Of a stretch of 64,000 nucleotides of DNA, positions 1-13,399 are shown piece after piece (the stretch's first letter is position 1; each line of letters begins with the position of its first letter). Source of the stretch: Deltaproteobacteria bacterium (GTDB lineage: Bacteria > Desulfobacterota > Desulfobacteria > Desulfobacterales > Desulfosarcinaceae); contig JAKALP010000007.1 of assembly GCA_021824175.1 (NCBI GenBank), positions 62,001-126,000 of the forward strand, read 5' to 3'. The position numbers and the translations under genes were made by a program. The notes under the pieces were generated by a model. That model saw nothing but the letters and a program-made list of their open reading frames with translations. It made no database searches and was not told the origin of the DNA.

Positions 1-764
1 ATGTGTTCTTCGTCGTCATTGACGCCTGGGATAAGCGGGGTCCGGGCGATGAACTTTGCTTCGGGGAATGTCTCGTAGGCCTTTTGGAGGTTGGCGCGGA
101 TGCGGCTGTTGTCCACGCCGGTCCACTTTTTGTGGAGTTGCGGATCGGTCAACTTGATGTCGTGGAGCACGGTGTCCACATGCGGTAGTACTTTGGCCAT
201 GAACTCCCAGGGCACATTGCTGGCCGTCTCGATGGTGGTGTTGATGCCGCGCGCATGCGCCCCTGCCAGCAGGGCCGCGGCAAAGTCCGCCTGAAGCTGG
301 CACTCGCCGCCGCTGAGCGTGATGCCGCCGCCGGATTCGCGGTAGAAACTGGCGTCCTGCTCCACTTCGTCAAGCACCTGGTCCACCGTCAGCGCCTGTC
401 CAAACAGGTAAAGGGCATTGCTGGGGCACACGGGAATGCACTGGCCGCAGTTGGTGCAAAGATCCCAGTTGATGCGCACCTTATCGTCAGGCCGGTCTCC
501 TGCGCCAACGACATGGATGGCCGACTCCGGGCAGACACCCTTGAGGCAGAAACCGCACTGCTTTTCACCAATGCACTTGCCAGGGTTGTACCCAAGTTCC
601 GGCTTGGCATTGATACTCTCGGGATTGGAGCACCATTTGCAGCGCAGGGAGCAGCCCTTGAGGAAGACATTGGTCCGGATGCCGGGTCCATCGTGGGTGC
701 AGAAGTGCTGGATATTCAGGACCACTCCTGTCAGTGCTTTTGTATTTCCTTGCAAATGCGTCAT
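1..764 (-). CDS. Glycyl radical enzyme activating protein (radical SAM), C-terminus beyond window
   Basis: This radical SAM activase would install the glycyl radical on the GRE encoded at 7026-9533. About 254 residues are visible and the 3' end lies outside the window. The SAM-cluster motif CxxxCxxC is at C38/C42/C45 (GCSLRCKWC). It is followed by a two-cluster ferredoxin insert with cysteines at about 64, 70, 73 and 78 and at 103, 106, 109 and 113, as in activases of the hydroxyphenylacetate decarboxylase, glycerol dehydratase and isethionate lyase groups. A later SGGE motif near residue 148 is the usual SAM-contact segment. The ATG at 764 lies 12 nt after the stop of the phosphofructokinase-like gene, so the two are co-transcribed. 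The activase is separated from its presumed GRE by six genes, which is unusual. The substrate class cannot be told from the activase. Confidence 0.9.
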   Translation of the reverse strand, partial: MTHLQGNTKALTGVVLNIQHFCTHDGPGIRTNVFLKGCSLRCKWCSNPESINAKPELGYNPGKCIGEKQCGFCLKGVCPESAIHVVGAGDRPDDKVRINWDLCTNCGQCIPVCPSNALYLFGQALTVDQVLDEVEQDASFYRESGGGITLSGGECQLQADFAAALLAGAHARGINTTIETASNVPWEFMAKVLPHVDTVLHDIKLTDPQLHKKWTGVDNSRIRANLQKAYETFPEAKFIARTPLIPGVNDDEEH

Positions 765-776
765 GGCTTATTTTCC

Positions 777-1934
777 TTAGTCTCCCAGCGCGATGCCCAA
801 TGCGCGGGCAACCTCAACGAATCCGTTGTCGGCGGAAATGATCCGAACATTGTTGATGACCTCGGCCAAAGGCACGAAGTCCAGGTCCGGCGGCTGGAAG
901 ACCACCATGACGCCGCTCTGACCGCCCTGTATGGCGCGCACCGCGCCGGCGCCATAGACCAGCCCCAGTTGGCGATCCACGACCGTGGGCGTGCCCCCTT
1001 TGGCCAACTGGCCCAGGACCAGGGGGTAGGTCTCCTGGCCGGTCAGGCGCTGGATCCCAAGGGCGACTTGCGTGGCCACCCGGCCGGCGCGTTCGATGAT
1101 ATTGACCCCTTCGTTGCCCGTGGCGCCGGGGGAAAGCGCGGCTTTCATGGCGGCATCCGACGGCTTGGGCGGCGCATTCAAGTCAATGGCCGGTTTCGCG
1201 CCCTCGGCCACCACCACCAGCCCGAAGGTTTGGCCGGCCTGGGTCTTTTCCAGCAACCGGGCCGCCACTTTGGGTAGATCATAGGCAATCTCCGGGATAA
1301 GCACGGCATCGGCGCAAACCGCTATGCCCGCTTGCAGCGCCAGCCAGCCCGCGTTCTCGCCCAGGACTTCGACCACACCGATGCGCCGGGCCGACTGAGC
1401 CGCCTGGCGGGCCCGTTCGAGCATCTCGGCCGTGAAGCTCAGGGTGCTGTTGAATCCGAAGGAGAGCATCGTGGCGGCCATGTCGTTTTCCACCGACTTG
1501 GGCACGCACACTGTCTTGAGCCCTTTGCGGCTGAGCTTCCAGAGAATGGCGAGCGCTCGTGGGCCCACCACCGAGATGACTGCTTCGATCTTCTCTTCGC
1601 GGATCTTTGCGAGCAGCGCATCGGAGCGGTCCAGTTCCTCGACACAATTTTCGGCATTGACGGTGCGCACATGAAACGGATCGCTGCGGCCCGCCGTGCC
1701 CAGGATGCAACCGCCGGCCCCGGCCAGGTTATTGGCCATGCTGGGGACAAGCTTCAATAACCCGCCCTCGGGGTAGCGCTCGGGAAACAGCAGCCCGTCA
1801 AAGCCGTCGCGGATGCCCACCACTTCCCATCCCAGTTCATCGGCCGCCCGGAGCGCGCCCGCGATGACGGCGTTGAGCCCCGGAGCATAGCCCCCGCCAA
1901 AATTGACGGCAATACGTTTTTTTTGATTGGTCAT
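777..1934 (-). CDS. Phosphofructokinase-fold protein with divergent catalytic motifs
   Basis: The 385-residue protein has the phosphofructokinase (PfkA/PPi-PFK) fold, but the signature residues are altered. The N-terminal GGGDAPGLN motif reads GGGYAPGLN (Y16). The nucleotide/PPi loop GGDGT reads VGPRA (about 123-127). The catalytic PKTIDND reads PKSVEND, with Glu149 in place of the catalytic Asp. The MGR substrate-binding segment reads LGE before NAGWLAL. A true 6-phosphofructokinase needs these residues, so I infer either a different phospho-substrate or donor, or a non-kinase role. It sits in the GRE/aconitase X cluster, 125 bp downstream of the transporter gene and 12 bp upstream of the activase. 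A GGAGAGGAG sequence lies somewhat far (about 16 nt) from the ATG. Automatic annotation would probably call it 6-phosphofructokinase, which should be treated with caution. Confidence 0.75.
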   Translation of the reverse strand: MTNQKKRIAVNFGGGYAPGLNAVIAGALRAADELGWEVVGIRDGFDGLLFPERYPEGGLLKLVPSMANNLAGAGGCILGTAGRSDPFHVRTVNAENCVEELDRSDALLAKIREEKIEAVISVVGPRALAILWKLSRKGLKTVCVPKSVENDMAATMLSFGFNSTLSFTAEMLERARQAAQSARRIGVVEVLGENAGWLALQAGIAVCADAVLIPEIAYDLPKVAARLLEKTQAGQTFGLVVVAEGAKPAIDLNAPPKPSDAAMKAALSPGATGNEGVNIIERAGRVATQVALGIQRLTGQETYPLVLGQLAKGGTPTVVDRQLGLVYGAGAVRAIQGGQSGVMVVFQPPDLDFVPLAEVINNVRIISADNGFVEVARALGIALGD

Positions 1935-2059
1935 ACGCTTACGTTTTACTCCTCTCCAGGGTTACGCTTTAAGCTGGCGCTGCTTTGATAGAGATCAGAA
2001 ATTCGCCGTTTTCTTTTTCTTCTACCAAAAACGCTTTTAAGTGACGGCTCCCATCGATC

Positions 2060-2914
2060 CTAAGCCGACGCCGGACCCGGTTTGATTTTGAAGAAAGATG
2101 ATGCCGGTATCAGTATCCCCAGCATAAGTATAACCATCGTTGCGATCATCAACATGACATCCGGCAGATCACGAAATATACTATTTGCAACCATTACCGC
2201 AACGCTGGCATTGCGCGCGCCATGCATGAACCCCATGGCAACCATTGTGCCGCGTTGCGGCCATCCAAGCAGGTAACCGATCCCAAAGCCGGCAATAACG
2301 TAGATCACGCCCGCAAGTATTGCGTATGTGCCAAACAAAGCAATGATGTACTTATAATAAAGCCCGATGAGGGTGAATAGCAGTAAAACTACGAAAAGGC
2401 GTGAAATCATGTGCAAGTACTTTTCAGCAGTATGGGCTATCTTCTCGAAGCGTGATCTGACAAAGAGACCGATAAGCAACGGCGCCACTATGGTAAGTAT
2501 TAGCTTCAATAGCAGATGTTTAACGTCGAAATGAACCTCAGGCAGAAGCACTCCCAGCATGAAAGGGATGTAGATGATCGTGATGCCAATCGACATGGCA
2601 AGAATGCCTCCGGAAAGTGAGACATTGGCATTGGATTTGGCTGTAAATATCGGGCCTACCTCCGCTCCTGCCGCCATGGCCAACAACACCAGACCGTATC
2701 TCAATGACGGGTCAAGACCAAAGAGCCTCGCAATTGAGGTAGCAAGAAGAGGAAGGATGATGTAGCTCGCAACAATCGCTGAGATCGTTATACGTCCATT
2801 CTTAAGAGGCTCGATAATTTGTTTGACCGTCTGGCTTAATCCCAATGCCAGCATTCCGCTGATCACATAAATCAGTATCACCGGAGTTAAGGCATGCGAC
2901 AAAAATTCATTCAT
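2060..2914 (-). CDS. BASS-family (bile acid:sodium symporter-like) transporter
   Basis: This 284-residue, very hydrophobic protein has about nine to ten membrane segments. It carries family-like features: an early PLKNGR loop, an AAGAEVGPIFT motif near residues 80-90, and a late GFMHGARN segment. BASS-family carriers move organic anions such as bile acids, 2-oxoacids and pantoate, usually with sodium. Here it would import the substrate (or export a product) of the GRE cluster. The ATG at 2914 follows the upstream stop by 3 nt, with AAGGGAA as ribosome-binding site, so translation is coupled. Its codons look more A/T-rich than those of its neighbours, suggesting a patchwork origin. It is shorter than eukaryotic bile acid carriers and typical for bacterial members. 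The family call is firm; the substrate is unknown. Confidence 0.75.
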   Translation of the reverse strand: MNEFLSHALTPVILIYVISGMLALGLSQTVKQIIEPLKNGRITISAIVASYIILPLLATSIARLFGLDPSLRYGLVLLAMAAGAEVGPIFTAKSNANVSLSGGILAMSIGITIIYIPFMLGVLLPEVHFDVKHLLLKLILTIVAPLLIGLFVRSRFEKIAHTAEKYLHMISRLFVVLLLFTLIGLYYKYIIALFGTYAILAGVIYVIAGFGIGYLLGWPQRGTMVAMGFMHGARNASVAVMVANSIFRDLPDVMLMIATMVILMLGILIPASSFFKIKPGPASA

Positions 2915-2917
2915 TCT

Positions 2918-4219
2918 TTAATTCCCTTCTGGGGCCGGCCGGCCAAAGGCCTCGTCGATGATGGCCTGCAGGCGGCTCATCGTTTCTGAGGTTGGTGGAT
3001 TGAAATCCCGCATTTCGTAGATCCGGCCCAGAAACCCGTATTTGCCCTGGGATGGCAATCGCCACAAGGCCTCCCGGACAGCGATACGAAGAATCGCTTC
3101 AACAGGCAAGGCTCTGAAATAGGTTGCAAAAACATGACTGATGTATTGATGGGCAAGGACCCAATAATCCTTTTGATGCCCCTCTGGAAAGCTCACCTTC
3201 CTCACGAGACATTCAACAAGACGGCTGACCATCCGTTCCACTTCCGGCTTCATGCGAATCGGCCGCCACGATCCCGGGCCGCGGACCGGCATCTGGACTT
3301 CAAGCGTCTTCGTATTGATCCACCTCACGCGCGCTCGCGTTTTCCGGCTTCCCTGCTTTTTGACATGAAGGACTTCGATAAAAGCCGTTTCCACCTCGTC
3401 CACCTGGACAATAACGATATCCCCCTCCTGCATATTCGCCGCAATCCTGTCGAGTTCGCGGGCCTGCTCATCTTGCGGATATTGATTCAGGACATTTCCC
3501 AAGAACAGGACGTTCTGCCTGTTCTTAATCCTTTGAGGAACACCTGTCTTCTGCAAGGTGATTCCGAATTCCGCGAGACCTGCCTCCAGAGGATTTTTTT
3601 CCATCCCGTACCCGTCCCAGGAAGGTCCAGGCCGGCTCGGGTCGCTGTCCCGCTTCCTTTCCAGATCAATCATTGCCTCGATCTTCACCACAGTGGGTGC
3701 CAGCATCTCGTCCAGTTCCGGGTCGGAGAACGCGACCCGCTCACCTGCGTACAGGAACCGCCGGCCCATGAAATACGCCTCCCACACCTCATTCCCATAA
3801 TGATTGTATGAATAGGCCACTGAGGCTACCTTGCCCGTGCGATCAACCACATAATGCCAGTCCGTGACCGCGTACGTGGTCTTCTTGGATGGGCTCATCC
3901 TGGATAAATGCCCACGGATCTTCTCCGCCCCAACGCCCAAGAGAGTGACGTTCGCGTAAGGCACCGCATCGGGGAGTTCCGTGGCCACATAATCCACGTC
4001 TATTTTGAGATCCCTTGCCAAAAGCGTTTTTAGGGCGATCGCTGCCTTGGCACGGGATACACCGACATCGATGAACGCAAACGCTGAGTCCAACAGTGGC
4101 GGTTCGTCCCGGTCAGGATCTTGAGGATTCTGGAGATCCCACAGAAGGCTCCCAAGCCCTGCATTCCTGTCAGGGATGATGTTGGTGTCGACAAGTGGAA
4201 TTGTCGTTTGAGCTTCCAT
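2918..4219 (-). CDS. Unrecognised 433-residue cytoplasmic protein of the GRE/aconitase X cluster
   Basis: I do not recognise a family with confidence. There is no signal peptide or membrane helix. An early segment (FIDVGVSRAK, then VDYVATELPDA) and a later one (NVLFLGNVLNQYP, then MQEGDIVIVQVDEVE) are spaced and patterned like the SAM-binding core of CheR-type methyltransferases. The glycine-rich SAM loop is not clearly present, so this is only a weak resemblance. An in-frame GTG at 4300 would overlap the upstream stop (GTGA). I prefer the ATG at 4219 because AAGGATG lies just upstream at normal spacing. The stop is 3 nt before the transporter start. Its fixed place between SnoaL-like and transporter genes suggests a role in the same pathway. 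Confidence 0.6.
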   Translation of the reverse strand: MEAQTTIPLVDTNIIPDRNAGLGSLLWDLQNPQDPDRDEPPLLDSAFAFIDVGVSRAKAAIALKTLLARDLKIDVDYVATELPDAVPYANVTLLGVGAEKIRGHLSRMSPSKKTTYAVTDWHYVVDRTGKVASVAYSYNHYGNEVWEAYFMGRRFLYAGERVAFSDPELDEMLAPTVVKIEAMIDLERKRDSDPSRPGPSWDGYGMEKNPLEAGLAEFGITLQKTGVPQRIKNRQNVLFLGNVLNQYPQDEQARELDRIAANMQEGDIVIVQVDEVETAFIEVLHVKKQGSRKTRARVRWINTKTLEVQMPVRGPGSWRPIRMKPEVERMVSRLVECLVRKVSFPEGHQKDYWVLAHQYISHVFATYFRALPVEAILRIAVREALWRLPSQGKYGFLGRIYEMRDFNPPTSETMSRLQAIIDEAFGRPAPEGN

Positions 4220-4296
4220 GGTTGGATCATCCTTGGATACTTTAGACTGCTCATACAATGCTGGCCCGGCTTCGCAGTGTGGTGACGATTTCCCAG

Positions 4297-4740
4297 TCAC
4301 TGGGCGGTCCGTGACATACTGCGGTCAGGCCGGAACGTCCGATGGACAAATTGCCATCCCGCCTGGGTCTTGCGCCACTGGTCGTCGTACACCCCGGTGT
4401 GCGACAGCCATGGAACAGCATCGCTGGCCCCTTGGCGTGTGACGAGCACCATCGTGCGGGTACGTGCGGAATCCACACCCAGGGAGTCAAACACAATCCC
4501 CGTTTGATGGTGCCGAGTAGTAACGCCCGCGAGACGTCCCTGAAAGTCCTGCAATGCCATGGTCCGAATGGCGGCGCGTGATTCCATGCGGATCTGCGGC
4601 TGGGTTTCTCCGGCAGCAACGAGTTCCCAAACCCCATCCTCCGTAAAGAGCAGAGCAAATCCATCAGGGTCCTTCGCATCCCATGTGTATGAGTAGCGAG
4701 CGATGACCTCGTGGATGGCGAGCTTATCTTCAAGACTCAT
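4297..4740 (-). CDS. SnoaL-like / NTF2-fold small protein
   Basis: The 147-residue protein reads as a SnoaL-like (NTF2-superfamily) domain. It starts with a helix (DKLAIHEVIARYSYTWD), followed by FALLFTEDGVWEL and the pattern GVYDDQWRKTQAGWQFVHRTF, typical of the C-terminal sheet of this fold. Family members are dehydratases, isomerases, cyclases or simple binding proteins that act on small organic acids, so a role in handling a pathway intermediate is plausible. GGGGGGAAAAT precedes the ATG. It is 158 nt downstream of the aconitase X large-subunit gene, with a strong hairpin between them. The domain call is reasonable; the reaction is unknown. Confidence 0.65.
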   Translation of the reverse strand: MSLEDKLAIHEVIARYSYTWDAKDPDGFALLFTEDGVWELVAAGETQPQIRMESRAAIRTMALQDFQGRLAGVTTRHHQTGIVFDSLGVDSARTRTMVLVTRQGASDAVPWLSHTGVYDDQWRKTQAGWQFVHRTFRPDRSMSRTAQ

Positions 4741-4843
4741 ATTTTCCCCCCCATTGTTTTTCGGGCATCTCCTCGCTCGGATTACGTCTCAACGACTAAC
4801 TTGATTTCCCCCGGACGCCAGGTCCGCGCGACGACTCGGACCG

Positions 4844-4871
4844 GAGCGCCCCCGGCGAACCGGGGGCGCTC
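4844..4871 (-). terminator. Strong GC hairpin between aconitase X and SnoaL-like genes
   Basis: A perfect 12-bp inverted repeat (GAGCGCCCCCGG, tetraloop CGAA, then the complement) lies in the 158-nt gap between two cluster genes. On the transcribed minus strand the loop is UUCG, a very stable tetraloop. No U-tract follows, so it may be a partial terminator or an RNA-stabilising element that lowers expression of the distal genes, not a full stop. Confidence 0.55.
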
Positions 4872-4898
4872 GGCGCTTCTTCAGATAGCAGCTATCTG

Positions 4899-6389
4899 TT
4901 AGTCGACCATCGGTTTCTCCCCTTGATACAACGGGCGTTCCTTTTCGCTGGCCAGACACTTCTCCCGCGGTTTGCTCCAGTAATCCCAGCGCGCAGTCGG
5001 CGTGAACACACCGGTGATCGCCGCATTGACGAGGGCTTCCGGGTTGCCATAGATCCACTTCGGTCCGAAGCCGCCTCCCAGCTTCACGTACTTGAAGCTG
5101 TCCGTGGCGATGACTGTGCCCTTTGGGTAGTGTCGGATCGGAGACATGGCGATGCAGGTCTGGTGGAAGATGTGGCCGCCGGCATCCTCGATTGTCTTGG
5201 TATCGCCGTAGTGCTGAGCCATGAAGTAGGTTGGCGTGTCGGTCTGCACCCACAGATGTACGCCCTTCTTCACCTTCTTGCCTTTCACCAGGCGCGCAAC
5301 CTCGCGGACCTCATCCCAGGTCGCGTGCGGACAACCGAAAAAGACGATGTCCACCGGCTTCGCTTTTTCCGGGCCGGGCGCCGGCTCGATGGCGTTGAGG
5401 TGGTGATACATCTCGACGACGTCGTCCATGGTAACTGTATAGCGTTCAGGATTCTTGGGCATCTTGCCCTTGAAGGCGGCCTCCAGGGTCGGGGATTCCG
5501 GCGTGTAGCCCATCAGGTGCAGCATCGGGTCATTCATGCCCGGTGAGGCGCAGGAGATCAGGTTCTTGGTCGCGCCCGGGCCCATCTTCTTGGGCAGGTT
5601 GAGCACGGCCATGATCCGGTTGCCGGCCTTCTCGGCGATGGCGGCACCCAGGGCGCCCCAATCCGCCATCCCCTTGATGTTGTCGCGAACCTCATCGGTC
5701 AGTTCGATGATGACCTTGGCAGCGCGATACTCATCAAGGTGCGTGCCATACTTGGGCAGGCAGCCGGTGTAGGCGCAGTAGACCGTATTGATTGCTGCTT
5801 CCCGGTTGGTCCGGGCACCCAGGATGGTGTTGATGTAGCACGCGGCGCTGGATTCGGAGCTGGCGGCATACTCTCCCATCTTGGGGATGCGGGTGTTAAA
5901 GTAGGGGTTGCACGACAGCCAGGGAAGCCAGCCATGCTCCATCAGCTTGTCGTAACCCGCCTTGAAGCCCGCGACCATTTCCTCGTCCAACCTAAAGCTG
6001 CCTTTGCCCGGAAGTTCGAAGTTCCAGGGTTTTCCATTCGGCTGCCCCTTGATCTCGCCGGCCTTGTCCAACTGGCACATATACGGATCGTTTCCGCACT
6101 CGGTGCCGGATTCGTCGTGGACATGCGCGTCTTTCATCGCGAAGATCGGATCGTAGAGCGGGCTGTGTCCCAGGTCGTATTCATTGAGCTTCGCCAGTCT
6201 CTTCGGCTCCAGACGATCCTTCACATAGATGGGACAACAGTTGAGGGTGAGGACAAGGTCCACCATTTCCGTGGCCTCGACCGCCTTGCCGAAATCCAAT
6301 AGCTTGTCCATGCAAAACTGCTTGGCTTCACCATGCTTACCATCCAGCATTTCTTGCTGGTAGGTTGTAAGTTTCATTTTTGCTTTCAT
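4899..6389 (-). CDS. Aconitase X catalytic (large) subunit
   Basis: The 496-residue protein is the AcnX catalytic subunit (DUF521). The family opening (MKLTTYQQEMLDGKHGEA) is followed by an ESSAACYINTILGARTNRE block and the GTHLDEYR motif, all diagnostic. Characterised AcnX enzymes are dehydratases: cis-3-hydroxy-L-proline dehydratase in bacteria and mevalonate-5-phosphate dehydratase in archaea. They use an iron-sulfur cluster and a separately encoded swivel subunit. It is longer than the usual 400-430 residues because of an insertion at roughly residues 75-130 that includes acidic and Cys-containing stretches. GGGAGATAAAT precedes the ATG. Its partner is encoded 44 nt upstream. The true substrate is unknown, but the pairing with a GRE points to anaerobic breakdown of a hydroxylated acid. 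Confidence 0.88.
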   Translation of the reverse strand: MKAKMKLTTYQQEMLDGKHGEAKQFCMDKLLDFGKAVEATEMVDLVLTLNCCPIYVKDRLEPKRLAKLNEYDLGHSPLYDPIFAMKDAHVHDESGTECGNDPYMCQLDKAGEIKGQPNGKPWNFELPGKGSFRLDEEMVAGFKAGYDKLMEHGWLPWLSCNPYFNTRIPKMGEYAASSESSAACYINTILGARTNREAAINTVYCAYTGCLPKYGTHLDEYRAAKVIIELTDEVRDNIKGMADWGALGAAIAEKAGNRIMAVLNLPKKMGPGATKNLISCASPGMNDPMLHLMGYTPESPTLEAAFKGKMPKNPERYTVTMDDVVEMYHHLNAIEPAPGPEKAKPVDIVFFGCPHATWDEVREVARLVKGKKVKKGVHLWVQTDTPTYFMAQHYGDTKTIEDAGGHIFHQTCIAMSPIRHYPKGTVIATDSFKYVKLGGGFGPKWIYGNPEALVNAAITGVFTPTARWDYWSKPREKCLASEKERPLYQGEKPMVD

Positions 6390-6433
6390 ATTTATCTCCC
6401 TTAAATTTTTATCTTTTAATTCGTTGGAAAAAA

Positions 6434-6871
6434 TTACCCCTTGCGGGTAATGGTTACAGTCGCCTTCTCACCGACCTCTGGCGCGTCGATTTCCACCCAA
6501 TCGCCCGTCTTGATCGTCGTGATCGGGTCCTGGTCCAATTTATCCACGGCGGGAATTTCACCGGCAATGGCGCCGTTGATATCAATAAAGTGGACCTCCT
6601 GGCAGATGAGGCCCGCGGGTCCGTGGTGGGACACCTTGCACTTGTAGTACAGGCTGAAGGCGCCGCTGGTGGAGCCGGCCGTTGTGGGATAGACGAAGAT
6701 CTTGCCGGTCACGATTTTACCTTTCATATCGGCGCCCGGCGCCATCACCATGCCGTCCTCGTTGCCGACGTGGTTGAACGCCCATCCAATCCGCTGGCGA
6801 TTCACCATCGCTTCGCCGGCCGCCTTGCCTTTCGAGCGGGCAATACCAGTTAATACGATTTTCTTTTCCAT
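6434..6871 (-). CDS. Aconitase X swivel (small) subunit, DUF126
   Basis: The 145-residue protein is the DUF126 swivel domain that pairs with the AcnX catalytic subunit encoded immediately downstream. The pattern is that of the family: an ARSKGKAAGEAMV opening, a PGADMKGKIVTGKIFVYP block with its TAGSTSGAF motif, and an ending GDWVEIDA followed by a strand. In this family the small subunit closes over the active site and contributes substrate contacts. AAAGGAG precedes the ATG at 6871. The gene lies 154 nt downstream of the GRE stop, with a GC hairpin and a short 12-bp tandem duplication (gatgtttagcgc, about 6889-6912) in the gap. Confidence 0.88.
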   Translation of the reverse strand: MEKKIVLTGIARSKGKAAGEAMVNRQRIGWAFNHVGNEDGMVMAPGADMKGKIVTGKIFVYPTTAGSTSGAFSLYYKCKVSHHGPAGLICQEVHFIDINGAIAGEIPAVDKLDQDPITTIKTGDWVEIDAPEVGEKATVTITRKG

Positions 6872-6908
6872 GGTTACTTTCTCCTTTGATGTTTAGCGCT
6901 GATGTTTA

Positions 6909-6937
6909 GCGCCGCTTCCTGGCCAAAAAAGCGGCGC
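6909..6937 (-). terminator. GC hairpin between GRE and aconitase X genes
   Basis: GCGCCGC and GCGGCGC form a 7-bp stem around a 15-nt loop just after the GRE gene. No U-run follows on the minus strand, so it is more likely a partial terminator or mRNA-stabilising hairpin that lets GRE message exceed that of the downstream genes. Confidence 0.45.
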
Positions 6938-7025
6938 GGGTTTTGTTTTCCGGCGACCCATTTGGCGCCGGATGCCCTTCATCCGATCAATCGCTTCGTC
7001 TTGTTAAGTCTTCTCAAGACTCAGC

Positions 7026-9533
7026 TCATTGCTCTTCCGTCCGCGCGATGATCTCCGCCTGCTGCGAGGGCGAAAGGTCGGTAAAGTACGCGCAGTAGCC
7101 GGCAACCCGCACGACGAGATCCCGGTACTTCTCGGGGTTCTTCTGCGCCTCCAGCATGGTTTGTCTATTAAGGATATTGAACTGAATGTGCGCATGCTTC
7201 TGGCTGCTCCAGGCGCGGATCAGCTGCATGAGCCGCCGCGTTCCTTCCTCTCCGGCAACGTTGGCGGGCGACATCTTCATGTTGAGCAGGTCTTCGCGGT
7301 GTTCTTTGTAGATCTGGCAGGTCGCCCGGGCGATGGACTGCAGGGTCACCGTGGGCCCCTTGGTGTCGCAGCCGTGCGAGGGAACGATGCCGTCAGAAAG
7401 ATACTCCCCGGCCTTCCGGCCGTTCGGCGTGGCCATGGTCACCTTACCGGAGGGGTTGTGGAAGGTGATCGGAATGATGCGCATGTTGGCGCTCTGGCCA
7501 TGCGGCCTGGGATGCTTGTGCGCATACTCCATAACGGTGCGCTGGATGTGGTAACCGATGGTGTCCACCCACTCGATGCCGTTGCCGTACTTGGGGGCAT
7601 TAAGGCACATCTGGCGGACGGCTTCCTTGCCTTCCCAGTTGCACTCCAGGGCATCGAGGAGTTGGTCCCAGGTCAGTTTCTTCGTGTCGTAAATGAGATG
7701 TTTGATGGCAGCCAGGGAATCGATGCAGGTCGCGAACCCTCCGAGCCCATCAATACAGGAGGCATCCAGCGCCCCCGGTATGTAATCTGCGTGGGTGTGG
7801 AGGTCCCTACCGTGCTCCATGCACAGGTCATGCAGCGTGGAGGCCAGCGGAGCCGCGATATACTTGGACTTCATCCCGGCCGCGATGTAGTTCTGGATCA
7901 TGATGTGCTTGACGACGTTCTCGAGCTGCATCCTGTAGGCATTCCACACGTCGTTATATGTCTTGAAGTTCCTCGGGTCACCCGTCTTCAGGCCGAACTG
8001 TTCTTCGCCGTATATCTTCATTTTGCCGTCCCGGAGAGCCATCTCCATGACCGCGCCATAATTGATGCCGCCGTTGCCGGTCTTGTGGGTCTCGCGGTTG
8101 GGCAGGCGCGATTCCGAGCACCCCGACATGGCATAATCCAGCGCTTCCTTCTTCACGATCCCGTTGCTCATGAACCACGGCACCTCGAACTCGTCGTTGA
8201 TCAGTTTGGGCGAGCCCTTGCCGTCCTTGATGGTCTCGGCCACGGCATGCAGGAACCGGTCGGGAGTATTGGCGTGGATTCGGACCCCCAGCTCCGGGTA
8301 GCTGCTCCGAAGAGGCCGAGTTGATTCCAGGAGCACGTAAGAAAGCTCGTTCGTGGCGTCGAAACCGTCGGGGGTCTGGCCGCCGATGGTTACGGTTTCG
8401 TGGTGGGAGAATCCCTCGCGGCCCTTGGCCGCGGATGGTGACATCTGGGACTCAATGCTCTGCATGATGTTTAGCCAGAGGCACTGGAACAGCTCCTGCG
8501 CCCCTTCCGGCGTGAGCCGCCCTTCTTCGATGTCCTTCTTGTAGGTGGGATAGAGATACTGGTCCATCCGGCCCTGATTGACTTGCCCTCCCACCATCTC
8601 CTCCAAACGCGAAAAGAGCTGGGTGAACCACTGCGCCTGGAGGGCTTCCCGGAAGGTGCGTGCCGGATTCTCAGGCACCCATGCGCAGATGGCCGCGATC
8701 TCCTCCAGTTCCTTCTTGCGCCGGGCGTCCTTCGTCTTGGTTGCCATCTCGGTGGCCAGTTGCGAGTAGCGCTTCGCCAAGAGGCTCAGTGCGTCGCAGG
8801 TGATGATGGCTGCTTCATAGAAGGGCTTCCTGAAGGCCAGGTCGCGCGGGTCTTCCAGCGCGGCTAACTTTGCCTGGGCTTCCTCGCGCAGACCCTTACA
8901 GCCCCGCGTCAGCATCTTTTCAAAGTCGGGAACCCAGTTCTGGGAATGGCGCATGGTTGAAGTAGAAATGATCACGAACGAAAACTTGGTCCCGACATTC
9001 TCGGGGTCAGAACCCCAAAAGGCGTGTCGGGTTTCAGGAGGCAGGGCCTTGATGAAGTTAGGGGTAAAGTCTTTGCCCTTCCAATAAGGAAAAAGGACCT
9101 CATCAATGATCTTCTTGTCTTCGTCGGTCACGGTAACGGCATCCGGGGCTCCGGCCTCTTTGGCCTCAATGAAAGCCTTTGCGCCCTCTTGGATGATCGT
9201 GCCGTCAAGCTCCGGGTACACCAGCGAGTACCGTCCGAACCAGGTGCAGGGCCGGCCCACGATGAGTTCATCGTCGAAGATGGCGACGGATATGTTTTCA
9301 GCTATGTGTCGCAGGGCTTTGGCCCAGCGCCAGACCAGCGGCTGGCCCTCGGTGCCCTTGAACGACTCCGTGAAATAGACCGCCCGTTCCAGGGCCACGC
9401 GCGGCGGGCCAGAGGTACGGATTCCGTCGAACATCCTGAGAACCCGGTCGGTCGCGGTTCCATGCAATATTTTTTTGCCATCGGCGATGGCCTGTTCTTG
9501 TGCGGAAAGGGCCTGCGCGGTTTTACTCCCCAT
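7026..9533 (-). CDS. Glycyl radical enzyme of unassigned substrate (lyase/decarboxylase/dehydratase type)
   Basis: This is an 835-residue PFL-like glycyl radical enzyme. The radical loop near the C-terminus reads VRVAGYCAYF with the radical glycine at Gly812. The thiyl loop reads SGCSES, giving Cys472 and Glu474, the Cys-x-Glu arrangement of dehydratases, C-S lyases and arylacetate decarboxylases, not of benzylsuccinate synthase. The segment RHSQNWVPDFEK aligns by eye to the position where dehydratases have His before PDY; here it offers Arg195 and Asn199, recalling the Arg/Gln pair described for isethionate lyase. Arg684 occupies a second conserved position. The substrate is therefore unassigned. 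AAGGGAGG precedes the ATG. The gene heads an operon with aconitase X and is preceded by a repeat hairpin and regulators. Confidence 0.9.
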   Translation of the reverse strand: MGSKTAQALSAQEQAIADGKKILHGTATDRVLRMFDGIRTSGPPRVALERAVYFTESFKGTEGQPLVWRWAKALRHIAENISVAIFDDELIVGRPCTWFGRYSLVYPELDGTIIQEGAKAFIEAKEAGAPDAVTVTDEDKKIIDEVLFPYWKGKDFTPNFIKALPPETRHAFWGSDPENVGTKFSFVIISTSTMRHSQNWVPDFEKMLTRGCKGLREEAQAKLAALEDPRDLAFRKPFYEAAIITCDALSLLAKRYSQLATEMATKTKDARRKKELEEIAAICAWVPENPARTFREALQAQWFTQLFSRLEEMVGGQVNQGRMDQYLYPTYKKDIEEGRLTPEGAQELFQCLWLNIMQSIESQMSPSAAKGREGFSHHETVTIGGQTPDGFDATNELSYVLLESTRPLRSSYPELGVRIHANTPDRFLHAVAETIKDGKGSPKLINDEFEVPWFMSNGIVKKEALDYAMSGCSESRLPNRETHKTGNGGINYGAVMEMALRDGKMKIYGEEQFGLKTGDPRNFKTYNDVWNAYRMQLENVVKHIMIQNYIAAGMKSKYIAAPLASTLHDLCMEHGRDLHTHADYIPGALDASCIDGLGGFATCIDSLAAIKHLIYDTKKLTWDQLLDALECNWEGKEAVRQMCLNAPKYGNGIEWVDTIGYHIQRTVMEYAHKHPRPHGQSANMRIIPITFHNPSGKVTMATPNGRKAGEYLSDGIVPSHGCDTKGPTVTLQSIARATCQIYKEHREDLLNMKMSPANVAGEEGTRRLMQLIRAWSSQKHAHIQFNILNRQTMLEAQKNPEKYRDLVVRVAGYCAYFTDLSPSQQAEIIARTEEQ

Positions 9534-9557
9534 AGTACTACCTCCCTTCTTTATTTC

Positions 9558-9759
9558 GAGGTAATTTCAAAACGTCCCCTCCCCGCTAAAGATCAACGGG
9601 ATCTGCGACGGGCTTTCCAATATCGGCGTTGGGGCGAGGTGGCCAATCCTCGAAATACTACATGTATGTCTGCGGTTGGCCGCCTCACCCCGCCTTGATC
9701 TTGAACCCGATTGACGAAGATCCCGAGCTCCTTATCGGGGAACATTTTGAAATCACCTC
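9558..9759 (-). repeat. Dispersed hairpin element, copy A (in the GRE leader)
   Basis: This 202-bp inverted-repeat element is one of three copies; the others are at 20171-20318 and 40411-40549. Its outer ends are GAGGTAATTTCAAAACGT and, inverted, AACATTTTGAAATCACCTC. The inner stem pairs 9636-9646 with 9676-9686 (one G-T pair) around a 29-nt loop at 9647-9675, which on the minus strand begins CCGCAGACATACA and ends TATTTCGAGGA. It lies 24 nt upstream of the GRE start codon and would be transcribed into the leader RNA of that gene. Confidence 0.85.
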
Positions 9760-9779
9760 TATCGTAAAATTGTTCCAAA

Positions 9780-10199
9780 TCAGATGTCCGCTCCCGGCAC
9801 CCCGCTCATATCCGGAGAAATGTATTTGCGGCCCTGGAGTACTTCGCGCAAGGCCGGAATCAAATCGATCACTGTTCTGCGCTTCAACACGAAGCCTTCG
9901 ACGCCTGCCGCCATCGTATCGTCGATGACGGATGGTTCATCATGGAGGCTCAGGATAATGATTTTCATTTCAGGAAAATCTCTCTTCAGCGCCCATGCGA
10001 TGTTTGTTTCTCCCGCGCTTGGAAGCGCCAGATCAACCACCACCACATCGGGATTGAAGTTCTGGAGGGCATCGTAGAGCGAGCCCTCATCGGCCACCAT
10101 CAAAACCGTGTTGACCTCATTTTCAAGCAGACGGCATATCCCCCCCAGCAGGGTTGAATGTTTATCGGCGAGAAGGACACGGCCTTGTTGCATCATCAT
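9780..10199 (-). CDS. Receiver-only response regulator
   Basis: The 139-residue protein is a single CheY-like receiver with no output domain. The phospho-acceptor Asp is in VVVVDLALPS and the conserved Lys in GFVLKRR. The usual acidic pair near the start (ADDH in relatives) reads ADKH, so one metal-binding acid has become Lys and phosphorylation may be impaired or altered. It lies between the full-length regulator gene (255 nt upstream) and the GRE (separated by repeat copy A). It resembles the receiver half of the neighbouring NarL-type regulator, so it may be a duplicated and truncated regulator, perhaps a phosphate sink or a titrating partner. The ribosome-binding site is weak (AAGTGAAAA). 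Confidence 0.8.
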   Translation of the reverse strand: MMMQQGRVLLADKHSTLLGGICRLLENEVNTVLMVADEGSLYDALQNFNPDVVVVDLALPSAGETNIAWALKRDFPEMKIIILSLHDEPSVIDDTMAAGVEGFVLKRRTVIDLIPALREVLQGRKYISPDMSGVPGADI

Positions 10200-10454
10200 T
10201 TTTCACTTTTTTTGGATGCTTTTTCGCAAAGTGCGTCTAAAAGCGCTTCGGGAAATGTTTCAGGGGAGATAATCAACTTTGCCCTGGAGGATCATGGCCG
10301 CCAAGGTCATTGAGAGCTCAACATCGGTGCAAGCCGCGCCAATCGAACTCTCGTGCTTTATAGATCAGGCTATAGAAGGAGGGACCATAATACAACTAGG
10401 AGAATTACTGGTTAGGGTGAGAAAATTTACTGGTCTTGGAGGCAATCTGGAGCA

Positions 10455-11096
10455 TTACACGGAGATAATGCCGTGTTTGATGGCATACTGGATCAATGCG
10501 ATACTGGTTTTAATATTGAGTTGCTCCATCATCTTGTATTTGTGAAATTCAACGGTCTTTGTTGAAATATCCAAAACGGACGCGATTTGCTTGGCGGACT
10601 TGCCTTCGGCCATGAGCTGTAAAACCTCCCGCTGTCGCGGGCTTATCTTTTTCAAAAGCATCTTTTCCGGTGAATCCCCTTGCTGATAGGCGTGGATGAG
10701 GTCTCCGGCAATTAGGGGTGTCACATACGTTTTTCCTTTTACTGCTTCATGGATCGCCGTAACCAGCTCGGATGGGGCCGAGTGTTTCAAGACAAAGCCT
10801 GATGCGCCCGCCTCAAAGGCGCTCGCCGCATAGGTTGCGTCCGGGTGCATGGTCAGGAACACGATCTTGATGTTTGGGTCGACTGTTTTGATCCGCCGGG
10901 CAGCTTCAATACCGCTGAGCTGTGGCATCGAGATATCCGCCACGATTACATCCGGATGCAGTGCAACCGCCTGATTCACGAGCTCCTGTCCATCCTGCGC
11001 ACTGCCGACAATATCAAACTCGTCCTTGAGCAGGCTTTTCAACCCCTCGAGCACGACTTGATGGTCATCCGCCAATAGAACTCGTGTTCTTTTCAT
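10455..11096 (-). CDS. NarL/FixJ-type response regulator (LuxR HTH)
   Basis: The 213-residue protein has a receiver domain (LLADDHQVVL; phospho-Asp in VIVADISMP; Lys in GFVLKHS) and a C-terminal LuxR-type helix-turn-helix. The latter starts at ISPRQREVLQLMAEGKSAKQIA and ends in KTSIALIQYAIKHGI. Its start overlaps the stop of the sensor kinase gene by 4 nt (ATGA), so the two form a classical pair. Since they lie directly upstream of the GRE operon on the same strand, the regulator most likely controls that operon in response to the sensor's periplasmic ligand. Confidence 0.92.
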   Translation of the reverse strand: MKRTRVLLADDHQVVLEGLKSLLKDEFDIVGSAQDGQELVNQAVALHPDVIVADISMPQLSGIEAARRIKTVDPNIKIVFLTMHPDATYAASAFEAGASGFVLKHSAPSELVTAIHEAVKGKTYVTPLIAGDLIHAYQQGDSPEKMLLKKISPRQREVLQLMAEGKSAKQIASVLDISTKTVEFHKYKMMEQLNIKTSIALIQYAIKHGIISV

Positions 11097-13399
11097 TCCC
11101 CCTCCCGCGTAAAAGGCACCCTGAGAGTGATCACTGTTCCTTTATCCGGCTGGGACGCAATGGAAAGATCCCCAGCGATCATTCTTGCTCGTTCGCGCAT
11201 GCTCGATAGTCCCAGACCTGGTTTTTTCCTTACTTGCGCCGGCTCGAACCCAATGCCATCGTCCTCAACCGTCAACAAGAGGTCATGATCGACGCCCTTT
11301 ATGCCAACAGTAATGTGCTCCGCGCAGGCATGTTTGGAAATGTTGCTGAGTCCCTCCTGGACGATTCGGTAAACCGCCAGCGAAATATCCTTAGGTATAG
11401 CCGCCGGGATGTTTTCATGGCTAAAGACGATTTCAATCCCTTCCCGCCTCGAAACGTTCATGCACTCCGCTTCGACCGCCTTGTTCAACCCCAGATCGTC
11501 CAGGATGGAGGGGTGCAACTGGCGTGAGAGGCGATGGATGTCTTGGGAGATTTTAATGATATTGGTTTTCATCTCACGCAACTGCGCCTGAACAGGGGCC
11601 GGCCGGTCCATCAATTGCTTCTCGAGTTCTCCCACATCAATGGCAAAAACCGCCAAGCGTTGCACCAAATCATCATGAAGCTCGCGGGCCAAGCGCCGCC
11701 GTTCTTCTTCCTGATTATGAATCAATCGCCCGGTGAGCGTCCTGAGATCATTTTCATTCTGACGCAGAATCCTCTCATTTTCGCGGGTGGCCTGCTCCCA
11801 CCGCTTGCGTTCGGTGATCTCTTCCACGAATCCCGAATAACGCGGCGTTTTCCCATCCGGGCCGCACACCCTGCGGGCGCTGATCGATGCCCAAATTTTT
11901 GCTCCATCCCGCCGCAACAATTCGCACTCGAAATCAAACACAACATCCTGCTTTTCAATCAAACTCACAAATTCTTCACGATTATCCTGGCCCGCGGGCA
12001 ACAGGCTCCACCAGTCTCTGATATTTGAGATAAACTCGGCGGGCGAAGCATATCCCAAGATCTTCGTCAGAGCGGGGTTAATCGTCAGGGGTTGCCCCAG
12101 CGGCGAGATTTCAAAGATACCCTCTATGGCACCTTCGAAAATGTTTCGGTACTTTTCTTCCGTTTTCCTGAGTGACACCTCAGCCGACTTCTTCCGGCGT
12201 CTCTGGACGAGAAGAAAAATAATCAGAGCGCTTTCCACCAGGCAGAAGGCCATTATCCCGATGATGTGATACTTGAAGTCCCAAAGCGTGAACTCCTTAT
12301 TTTGGATGATGCTCCCCTGGGGCAAAGCGCTTTGGCTCAGGTTCCAACGCTTGAGCTGCCGCCAGTCGAACATCGGCACGGGCGATATCTTCAGGATTTT
12401 GGAGGCATCCCCCGGCGGCTGATTGCCTTTGAGGAAATCCAGGGCGAGTTCCCCCGCCTTTGCGCCGACATGCTCGGGATCGAGGAGCGTGCCTCCCACA
12501 ATCCCGTATCCCATACCGGTGTCGACAATCCCAAAGATTGGCGCCGCGCAGACTTGGCTCAACCTTTGGGCCACGATCGGGATTCTGAAATTTTCCCCGT
12601 TAACATCCCGAACAAGGACCAGGAGAAGAAGAATAGAGTCGGGTGGCACGCTGGAGGCAGTAGCCAATATATCTTCGAAGGGCAAGTTGCTCAGGTAGTG
12701 AAATTCAAGCCGGGTCTCCCATTTTTTTAAATCGCGACGGGCCTGCGCTTCGATCCGTTGGTCAATTTCGTGGACGCCGCTCACGACATAGACGCGTTTT
12801 GCGCCGGGAACCAAGCCCAGCGCAATCTCAAGGGTTCCCGTGATATCGAGGGTGGCGGTATGCTGGACGATGGTGCGGTCCGCATTCGGCAACTCTAGGC
12901 TTTTTTGCAGGTACAGGGCGATGATGGGAACATGGGGAAAGATATCCGCGCAATCTGCCAACACGAACGCCAAGGCTTCCGGGTACATGGTGATGATCAC
13001 ATCGACCTTTCGATGGCCGTACTGCAAGCGCAATTTTTCGACCAGCGCTTGCCTGTACTCGATACCAGGGTTCAAGATGATGTTAAGGGATTCGAAAAAC
13101 TGGTTGAGCTCGGATATCCCGCCGGACTCCAGCGTCGTTGCGAGTCCTTTGTCGGTTTTTAGGAAAAGAGGCGCATTGGCTTCGCCGGAGTGCATCACCA
13201 GGACATTCTTCCCGGTCAGATCAACCTGAGCCTGGGCCTGGGCAAAGGCCGGGCCGGCACCAGGCCCGAAGGCGAGCAGGAGGAAAAAGCATAACGCATA
13301 ATATACCGTGATCCATCCGATTCGGCGGGGTAATGGCACTTCTAATTTCGGCACACGGCTCAAATTATAATCCTCATAGAAATCAGAACCTGAAAACAA
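11093..13399 (-). CDS. Sensor histidine kinase with periplasmic ABC-type binding domain, PAS and HisKA_3
   Basis: This is a 768-residue membrane sensor. An N-terminal membrane segment or signal (about 28-52) is followed by a periplasmic domain of the ABC substrate-binding type (about 62-350, starting NVLVMHSGE). Then come a second membrane helix (IIGIMAFCLVESALIIFLL), a PAS domain (YRNIFEGAIEGIFEI) and a NarL-family dimerisation/phospho-acceptor helix with His in RELHDDLVQRL. The C-terminal ATPase domain has DDGIGFEP and GLGLSSMRERA. Such binding domains sense a small solute directly. A TTG at 13399 preceded by AGGAG at 10-nt spacing is the best start, though GTG codons further in are possible. 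It is coupled to the downstream regulator and probably detects the substrate of the GRE pathway. Confidence 0.9.
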   Translation of the reverse strand: MFSGSDFYEDYNLSRVPKLEVPLPRRIGWITVYYALCFFLLLAFGPGAGPAFAQAQAQVDLTGKNVLVMHSGEANAPLFLKTDKGLATTLESGGISELNQFFESLNIILNPGIEYRQALVEKLRLQYGHRKVDVIITMYPEALAFVLADCADIFPHVPIIALYLQKSLELPNADRTIVQHTATLDITGTLEIALGLVPGAKRVYVVSGVHEIDQRIEAQARRDLKKWETRLEFHYLSNLPFEDILATASSVPPDSILLLLVLVRDVNGENFRIPIVAQRLSQVCAAPIFGIVDTGMGYGIVGGTLLDPEHVGAKAGELALDFLKGNQPPGDASKILKISPVPMFDWRQLKRWNLSQSALPQGSIIQNKEFTLWDFKYHIIGIMAFCLVESALIIFLLVQRRRKKSAEVSLRKTEEKYRNIFEGAIEGIFEISPLGQPLTINPALTKILGYASPAEFISNIRDWWSLLPAGQDNREEFVSLIEKQDVVFDFECELLRRDGAKIWASISARRVCGPDGKTPRYSGFVEEITERKRWEQATRENERILRQNENDLRTLTGRLIHNQEEERRRLARELHDDLVQRLAVFAIDVGELEKQLMDRPAPVQAQLREMKTNIIKISQDIHRLSRQLHPSILDDLGLNKAVEAECMNVSRREGIEIVFSHENIPAAIPKDISLAVYRIVQEGLSNISKHACAEHITVGIKGVDHDLLLTVEDDGIGFEPAQVRKKPGLGLSSMRERARMIAGDLSIASQPDKGTVITLRVPFTREGE

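Follow-up and report, generated by a model that had tools for sequence, protein, structure and literature searches.

A recurrent gene set pairing a glycyl radical enzyme with aconitase X in a Deltaproteobacterium, and its possible role in organosulfonate breakdown

Glycyl radical enzymes (GREs) catalyse some of the hardest anaerobic reactions. An uncharacterised clade of them with an aconitase X (AcnX) partner is encoded at the start of the window analysed here, a stretch of 64,000 nucleotides from a Deltaproteobacterium of the Desulfosarcinaceae (contig JAKALP010000007.1). In such a pairing, the two enzymes limit each other's possible reactions. We analysed the cluster around this pair, its relatives in other genomes and the residues of its key proteins, and we found a rare gene set with a constant core that may serve the breakdown of an organosulfonate-like anion. 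The host genome (G000) comprises 6.07 Mb in 61 contigs and carries two more GREs elsewhere.

Results

Gene content of the cluster

An initial annotation, made from the letters alone, had named a cluster on one strand with a sensor kinase, a regulator, a GRE, both AcnX subunits, a SnoaL-like protein, an unrecognised protein, an organic-anion carrier, a protein of the phosphofructokinase (PFK) fold and the GRE activase. We recovered all of these genes as open reading frames on the minus strand of the first 13.4 kb of the window, with intergenic gaps of -4 to 255 bases, and strong family matches bear the naming out (Table 1). The regulator is indeed present, as two proteins, one of LuxR type and one that is receiver-only.

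Table 1. Features of the cluster; positions are those of the window unless a locus is named.
Feature	Position	Strand	Observations
GRE activase (radical SAM)	1..764	-	gene cut by the window edge
GRE activase, whole gene	L004:14793-15764		323 aa; ends 207 bases outside the window
PFK-fold protein	777..1934	-	PF00365 220.4 bits; GGDGS replaced, catalytic Asp to Glu; probably no normal kinase
BASS/SBF-family organic anion carrier	2060..2914	-	PF01758 63.8 bits; homologues at other loci
Unrecognised protein	2918..4300	-	weak similarity, below cut-off, to a SAM methyltransferase family; last ~40 residues from a duplicated activase tail
SnoaL_4 protein	4297..4740	-	83.7 bits
AcnX large subunit	4899..6389	-	AcnX 298.3 bits; uncharacterised subclass
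AcnX small (swivel) subunit	6434..6871	-	AcnX_swivel_put 63.1 bits; catalytic Ser motif GSTSG
Glycyl radical enzyme (GRE)	7026..9533	-	PFL-like 577.7 bits and Gly_radical 91.8 bits
Receiver-only response regulator	9780..10199	-	Response_reg match; 71% identical in G042
LuxR-type response regulator	10455..11096	-	Response_reg/GerE match; 80% identical in G042
Sensor histidine kinase	11093..13399	-	PAS, HisKA_3, HATPase; 69% identical over residues 17-550 in G042

A rare set with a constant core

Among the 194 genomes of the order, GREs with at least 80% identity to that of the window occur in two, G000 itself and a second genome (G042, 84%), and the next best match reaches 50%. AcnX with at least 50% identity is found in the same two genomes (next best 38%), and the GRE adjoins AcnX in both. 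The row in G042 reads sensor, both regulators, a second AcnX pair, GRE, AcnX pair, DUF1254/1214, a ThrE-like exporter, a short-chain dehydrogenase/reductase (SDR), PFK-like protein and activase. The two AcnX pairs that flank the single GRE of G042 (L037/L038) have large subunits 78% and 50% identical to that of the window, and they may act on different steps or isomers.

Two short peptide patterns were also used to look for the AcnX large subunit in 84,980 species genomes; the loci obtained in this way are a lower bound. At least 13 loci were found, eight with 47-93% identity (L059-L066) and five with 26-30% (L067-L071). The closer ones lie in Verrucomicrobia (L059, L060, L061), a Deltaproteobacterium (L062), Hyphomicrobiales (L063), Roseomonas (L064), Pseudomonas (L065) and a cyanobacterial contig (L066), and all of them except L063 have a GRE of the same clade beside AcnX (7/8). 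At L063, whose AcnX (79%) is the closest one without this partner, a GRE is absent from the locus, and the five distant loci gave no GRE match.

With the window and G042 included, the GRE stands beside both AcnX subunits at nine of nine loci with this GRE clade, across several phyla and in differing gene orders. PFK-like protein and activase accompany them at eight of the nine; L059 ends at a contig end, and the pair belonging to L066 lies in L081. The GRE is a single open frame in six copies (window, G042, L061, L062, L064, L065). The same gene set, which the initial annotation had proposed to seek in other genomes, is therefore present at nine loci in several phyla, and its genes do co-occur.

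Rarity is also seen within larger groups. Four of the 395 genomes of the phylum (G000, G467, G545, G408) contain AcnX at an E value of 1e-80 or better, and the contig number and positions of the G467 match agree with those of L062. The genome of G545 contains no Gly_radical match, and no GRE match was seen at the AcnX locus of G408. Within the 42 genomes of the order to which the L066 genome belongs, AcnX was matched in that genome only. The PFK-like protein at E 1e-100 or better is found in three of the 395 genomes of the phylum and in one of 240 genomes of the phylum of L061, there in two copies. The gene set is thus real but rare. Its core consists of the GRE, both AcnX subunits, the PFK-like protein, the activase and some carrier.

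The SnoaL protein, the unrecognised protein and the sensor were considered as core parts and rejected, as they were not found or had diverged in most other copies. Among the loci read, the SnoaL protein is confined to this copy, with no match at any of the 17 further module-set loci; the unrecognised protein occurs here and in Verrucomicrobia only, and the sensor system is closely kept in G042 only. Two further genes were seen near copies of the set: a SAM synthetase gene inside the cyanobacterial cluster (L066:12102-13277), perhaps feeding the activase, and a porin-like protein that recurs near five copies of the GRE kit (L037:5286-6113, L066, L060, L082 and L083) and has no Pfam match in its L082 copy.

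A GRE clade that keeps two arginines of IslA

The GRE contains PFL-like and Gly_radical domains, the thiyl Cys and the radical Gly motif, and an activase is encoded in its cluster. It is 46% identical to 6LON, which we take to be HpsG, and 45% identical to the isethionate sulfite-lyase IslA (7KQ3), while IslA and 6LON share 61%. In a FastTree analysis of 32 GREs, seven members formed a clade of their own (support 1.000), which falls outside the clade of IslA, 6LON, L041-L048 and L050-L052. The broken or incomplete GREs of L059 and L060 had been excluded from alignments and tree.

All seven aligned clade members keep Cys468, Glu470, Gly805, Arg189 and Arg678 (IslA numbering) and share the substitutions I192Q, Q193N, W374H, F682I and S684F. 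Arg189 and Arg678 are present together in 21 of the 32 tree rows, namely the seven clade members, IslA, 6LON and L041-L052. According to the accessible part of the IslA report, Arg189, Gln193 and Arg678 bind the sulfonate, and the variants R189E and R678E, the double variant and Q193A are inactive (PMC8473560). For IseG, the available text states that CutC and other GREs lack the three equivalent residues (PMC6453916). Of these three ligands, the clade keeps both Arg and has Asn for Gln193 in all seven aligned members. From these residues, the GRE probably holds an anion, probably a sulfonate, as IslA does, in a re-shaped and more polar pocket. Diols, hydroxyproline, sulfonates and arylacetates had been listed initially as possible GRE substrates; the kept Arg pair narrows this list towards sulfonates. 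Besides this clade, the tree contained a third GRE lineage with both sulfonate Arg and Gln193, represented by L049, which has Phe at Trp374, lies apart from IslA and 6LON and scores 1116.7 with the sulfopropanediol dehydratase model NF048011.

An uncharacterised branch of AcnX

In the AcnX large subunit, the Fe-S ligands Cys160, Cys353 and Cys412 (Cys110, Cys283 and Cys342 of TkAcnX) are invariant in ten of ten rows, as are Glu179, Ser180 and Lys433 (Glu129, Ser130 and Lys361 of TkAcnX); the catalytic and Fe-S residues of TkAcnX used for this comparison are those given in the accessible part of PMC8184944. Ser67 of the small subunit is kept in eight of eight rows. The protein pair thus has the small-subunit Ser, the large-subunit Glu/Ser/Lys and the three Fe-S Cys of a two-subunit, type II AcnX.

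Its place within the family is separate. In a tree of 42 rows, the AcnX belongs to a clade of 11 that includes L079 (support 0.991; 0.999 with L080). The Tyr of both known enzymes (Tk Tyr365, At Tyr534) is Leu or Ile in all 11 clade rows and in L080 (Leu in the window), and the other 30 rows have Tyr (26), Ser or Asn (2) or do not cover the position (2). The match to the solved TkAcnX is limited to residues 158-435 (118.6 bits), and the N-terminal substrate region does not align. The available text of PMC8184944 describes AcnX types IIc-IIf as uncharacterised and as lacking the landmark residues of both known activities. By its residues, our clade appears to fit this description, with no particular letter among the four. 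Placed in trees with characterised members, as the initial annotation had suggested, both the GRE and AcnX thus branch outside the characterised subfamilies.

A PFK-like protein that accompanies the activase

We take GGDGS to be the nucleotide/Mg motif of PFK and presume the roles of this motif and of the catalytic Asp. In ten of ten homologues of the PFK-like protein, Glu149 stands where PFK has the catalytic Asp, and GGDGS occurs in none; the stretch reads GPRA, GARA, GPQA, GSRG or GGQG in eight of them and GGSAVTG plus six further residues in L064 and L065. With both the nucleotide-motif Asp and the catalytic Asp replaced, normal kinase activity is unlikely, and the protein is probably not a normal kinase. 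We therefore rejected an ordinary sugar or substrate kinase, and the substrate activation that had initially been considered possible for this protein appears unlikely. As GGQG keeps the glycines in L082 and L083, the protein may still bind nucleotides there. A six-residue deletion in the motif was also considered and discarded: against solved PFKs the stretch is a replacement, and L064 and L065 are the longer ones.

At all 11 loci read, the window included, the PFK-like gene lies directly upstream of the activase (homologues at 60% identity or more) and ends 8-12 bases ahead of it or overlaps it. The long overlap in L090 results from an early start codon chosen in gene calling. At L082, L083 and L090 the same pair occurs with another GRE (GRE2), which is 29-31% identical to that of the window. 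The PFK-activase pair is thus not substrate-specific, which suggests a role with GRE and activase rather than in one pathway step.

GRE2 (L082:14318-16753, L083:6544-8994, L090:5394-8015) is an unclassified type with Gly at the Glu position of diol-type GREs, and BASS carriers and sulfur genes lie nearby. The best NCBIfam match of the L083 copy is HypD, at 500.8 bits against a cut-off of 1100.

Horizontal transfer

We compared the GRE and RpoB of this genome with those of other carriers, leaving out the RpoB of G198. Identities were 91.9% for GRE and 52.5% for RpoB in the Verrucomicrobium G196, 88.6% and 56.7% (1051 aligned columns) in the cyanobacterium, 80.0% and 57.0% in Roseomonas, 85.5% and 66.9% in the Deltaproteobacterium G197, and 83.7% and 78.2% in G042. 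The Pseudomonas values (60.9% and 56.6%), taken alone, give no transfer signal. In the Verrucomicrobium, the cyanobacterium and Roseomonas, GRE identity is far over the vertical expectation. By these identities, the GRE has moved horizontally between distantly related bacteria. Very similar copies across phyla, including the cyanobacterial contig, point to a widely met compound.

On the cyanobacterial contig, an orange carotenoid protein gene (Carot_N and NTF2 domains) lies about 1.8 kb from the activase. Contamination of this contig is therefore unlikely, and mis-binning was rejected as the source of the copy. Plasmid carriage was rejected as well: of 72,556 plasmid records, 7 matched AcnX (E limit 1e-20) and 22 matched the GRE (E limit 1e-100), in every case below 60% identity. 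GC content was not usable as a sign of transfer. It is 59.3% in the GRE, 58.4% in AcnX and 49.6% at the rpoB locus, but the window at 14-30 kb is as rich as the cluster (0.56-0.61), so that GC is uninformative here.

In Roseomonas, Pseudomonas and G197, this GRE is the only Gly_radical match genome-wide. Roseomonas rosulenta OP-27 and Pseudomonas sp. N040 carry the set with a one-frame GRE that is the only GRE of the genome, and the set is therefore directly testable there.

Sulfur and hydroxy-acid genes near the set

Genes of sulfur metabolism were found near several copies. TauD-family genes lie at L065 and L063; the L065 protein keeps His70, His99, Asp101, His255, Arg266 and Arg270 of E. 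coli TauD, whose roles we presume, and does not keep Tyr73 and Asn95. A 78-residue remnant of a second TauD-family gene lies past the L065 cluster (L065:18696-18932), 83% identical over 64 residues to the gene at 1835-2677. L066 has an arylsulfatase and an alkylsulfatase nearby, L084 a sulfatase in two frames and SulP, and in the genome of the window SulP follows directly after the activase. The context of the GRE2 modules includes a DszB-like gene, a rhodanese, a disulfide reductase with a rhodanese domain and SulP; DszB-like gene, rhodanese and SulP are found at L083. The DszB-like (aryl sulfinate desulfinase) gene beside GRE2 at L083:4630-5871 matches 2DE2 at E 9.6e-9 and keeps the YxNCP and RFGG stretches of DszB. 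The context set was sought at 17 module or AcnX loci, in the window and at seven control loci, and nothing in it matched at the controls. Since the queries were drawn from module loci and the controls are seven, the sulfur context is suggestive only. A dsrA over cut-off is present in G000, G042 and G197, and by this gene the host of the window looks like a sulfate or sulfite reducer.

A second kind of context concerns hydroxy acids. In carnitine-like degradation, a 3-hydroxy acid is converted to a 3-keto acid, which is then cleaved by BKACE. L063 and L079 combine AcnX with a dehydrogenase and BKACE, and neither genome contains a Gly_radical match. Since known AcnX substrates are 3-hydroxy acids, this context suggests such an acid, which would be either oxidised and BKACE-cleaved or handed to the GRE. 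BKACE is found in five of 11 genomes and gave no match in G042, G194-G197 and G201; it was therefore rejected as a general part of the set, and with two BKACE proteins as queries none was recognised beside the GRE copies read.

Remaining features of the cluster

The sensor kinase has an N-terminal hydrophobic segment, a large, presumably periplasmic domain and a second hydrophobic segment near residue 380. The carrier shows the SBF domain and several hydrophobic segments, as expected for the BASS family. AlphaFold models had a mean pLDDT of 39.6 for the unrecognised protein and 67.7 for the PFK-like protein. A tandem-duplication scar runs through this part of the cluster (window 2938-3045 and 2074-2198; L004:14677-14920). 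The unrecognised open reading frame ends in a duplicate of the activase tail (89% DNA identity), a remnant of the BASS tail (82-84%) sits just past the activase, and the C-terminus of the Verrucomicrobial homologues of the unrecognised protein differs.

Discussion

We propose that the gene set is catabolic, spreads horizontally as a cassette and serves the breakdown of an organosulfonate-like anion, a reading to which we give a probability just under one half (about 0.48). The substrate class, the cleaved bond, the order of steps and the role of the PFK-like protein that we infer are as follows. An anion carrier, BASS in this copy, would import the substrate under the control of the sensor kinase and the regulators present here. 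AcnX would dehydrate or hydrate a 3-hydroxy acid across C2-C3 and probably supply, or remove, the hydroxyl needed by the GRE. With its radical SAM activase, the GRE would abstract a hydrogen adjacent to the hydroxyl, and the neighbouring group, bound by the Arg pair, would be eliminated; this group is most likely a sulfonate, lost as sulfite through C-S cleavage. The product would be a keto or aldehyde compound that enters central metabolism, and the SDR dehydrogenases of three sister clusters may handle hydroxy/keto steps. Sulfite could be respired in hosts with Dsr, and elsewhere the pathway could supply carbon or sulfur. The PFK-like protein may assist the GRE and its activase, or it may be a sugar-phosphate-binding protein in altered form. 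The initial scheme had placed the GRE before AcnX; that order is not favoured here, since the gene context is at least equally compatible with AcnX acting upstream.

A more explicit version of this scheme is speculative, and we consider it improbable in its full detail. AcnX would act as a hydratase on an unsaturated sulfo acid (X-CH2-CH=CH-COO-, e.g. 4-sulfocrotonate) and yield X-CH2-CH(OH)-CH2-COO-; the GRE would release X as sulfite from this compound, with a 3-keto acid, e.g. acetoacetate, as the remaining product. Hosts without the GRE would oxidise the same hydroxy acid and cut it with BKACE, and the PFK fold would be a new GRE/activase accessory that also serves the second GRE type. 3-Hydroxy-4-sulfobutyrate and 4-sulfocrotonate are candidate compounds that we propose from chemistry alone. 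If true, such an AcnX-hydratase/GRE route would be novel as a pathway logic, and AcnX and the PFK fold would each gain a new role.

Several observations weigh against the main reading. Asn replaces Gln193, the third sulfonate ligand, and in IslA the Q193A change abolishes activity; Trp374 is replaced by His. The Arg pair could hold a carboxylate or a sulfate ester instead. GRE2 has the PFK-like protein, the activase and the type of carrier in common with our GRE although it lacks Arg189, Glu470 and Arg678, and the kit is therefore not confined to sulfonates. The sulfur genes are only neighbours, TauD and SulP are broad families, and neither the sulfatase nor the SulP queries matched anything at L060, L061, L064, L065 or G042. 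In the Verrucomicrobia, Roseomonas, Pseudomonas, Hyphomicrobiales and cyanobacterial genomes no dsrA passed the cut-off, and sulfite respiration therefore cannot be the general purpose. Finally, the GRE is broken or split in three of nine copies (L059, L060, L066), which may reflect sequencing error in metagenome-assembled genomes or decay.

A pathway without sulfur is the strongest competitor, though we think it less likely. The GRE would act as a dehydratase (or C-N lyase), with the Arg pair holding the carboxylate of a polyhydroxy or dicarboxylic substrate, and AcnX would dehydrate the same or the next hydroxy acid. Diol GRE eliminases and AcnX are both hydro-lyases; the change of Gln193 to Asn and the more polar pocket (I192Q, W374H) suit such a substrate, as do the BKACE and dehydrogenases beside the AcnX relatives of L063 and L079, which are typical of ordinary keto-acid degradation, and the sharing of the kit with a GRE2 that has no Arg pair. 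This reading has to contend with the repeated sulfur-gene neighbours and with the closest characterised GREs that have both Arg, which act on sulfonates in the accessible parts of the literature.

Considerably less probable is that the GRE is an ordinary HpsG/HpfG-type enzyme, a sulfolyase or dehydratase of 2,3-dihydroxypropanesulfonate (DHPS), whose neighbouring genes are unrelated. Our GRE scores 1004.5 with NF048011 (cut-off 1000), and like 6LON it has the Arg pair and Ile at position 682. This model is not specific, however: the IslA-like GRE L046, 76% identical to IslA, reaches 1545.8, and naming our GRE HpsG by its NCBIfam score was rejected on account of this control. Five other clade members score 962.0-1000.1, four of them below cut-off (4/6 scanned members), so the curated model calls some members of one clade sulfopropanediol dehydratase and others not. 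Identity to 6LON is also well short of that between IslA and 6LON, the clade lies outside theirs, Trp374, Gln193 and Ser684 are replaced in all seven aligned members, and AcnX stands beside the GRE at every locus of the clade.

That separate operons (GRE and activase; AcnX; transporters) are adjacent by coincidence is very improbable. Carriers, SDR, sensor and SnoaL do vary between copies, and AcnX of the clade occurs without the GRE in L063 and L079, but the GRE-AcnX association holds at nine of nine loci and that with PFK-like protein and activase at eight, in several phyla and varied gene orders; since seven of the nine loci were found via AcnX, GREs of the clade without AcnX may have been missed outside the order. 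Least probable of all is a hydroxyproline or mevalonate-phosphate pathway with a HypD-like GRE: HypD is a GRE, and cis-3-hydroxy-L-proline dehydratase and mevalonate-5-phosphate dehydratase are the two characterised AcnX activities in the available text of PMC8184944, but the shared Tyr is Leu or Ile in all 11 members, the N-terminal region (phosphate-binding in Tk) does not align, the scores are far below cut-off (147.4 bits against 700 for the C3LHyp equivalog NF051439; 483 against 1100 for the HypD model), and no proline-metabolism gene was recognised among the cluster genes, none having been sought further out.

In the literature searched, mostly outside subscription journals, we found no published pathway that joins a GRE and AcnX, and the suggestion that no described pathway has this gene set holds up, with both enzymes outside characterised subfamilies and the genes recurring together. 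The pathway had also been called anaerobic; it is not exclusively so, given a one-frame GRE in Roseomonas and Pseudomonas and a split-frame GRE on the cyanobacterial contig. The PFK-like protein beside the activase, with its kinase motifs replaced, may reveal an accessory of radical enzymes that is so far unknown.

Relation to known systems

Carnitine-like degradation with a dehydrogenase and BKACE follows the logic suggested by the L063 and L079 gene sets, and the GRE loci differ from it in having no recognised BKACE. With 6-phosphofructokinase PfkA, the PFK-like protein shares the fold family PF00365. Unlike PfkA, it lacks the GGDGS Asp, has Glu for the catalytic Asp in ten of ten homologues and is encoded directly before a GRE activase.

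AcnX resembles the mevalonate-5-phosphate dehydratase (archaeal AcnX type IIb) in its two subunits, Fe-S Cys, Glu129, Ser130, Lys361 and the small-subunit Ser-Thr, whereas Tyr365 is replaced and the phosphate-binding region of that enzyme does not align. The characterised At AcnX is alike in fold and core residues, but our clade has Tyr534 replaced and forms a separate tree branch.

Among GREs, the DHPS sulfolyase HpsG, to which HpfG is the related dehydratase, shares the GRE branch and the Arg pair with our enzyme, which barely passes NF048011. Our GRE differs in its 46% identity to 6LON, its position outside that clade and its other pocket signature, and the DHPS account, in the accessible part of PMC12890257, names no AcnX. 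With the isethionate sulfite-lyase IslA/IseG, the GRE has in common the fold, the Cys, Glu and Gly, both sulfonate-binding Arg and a dedicated activase. It is set apart from IslA/IseG by an identity of 45%, by five changed pocket residues and by its AcnX and PFK-like partners.

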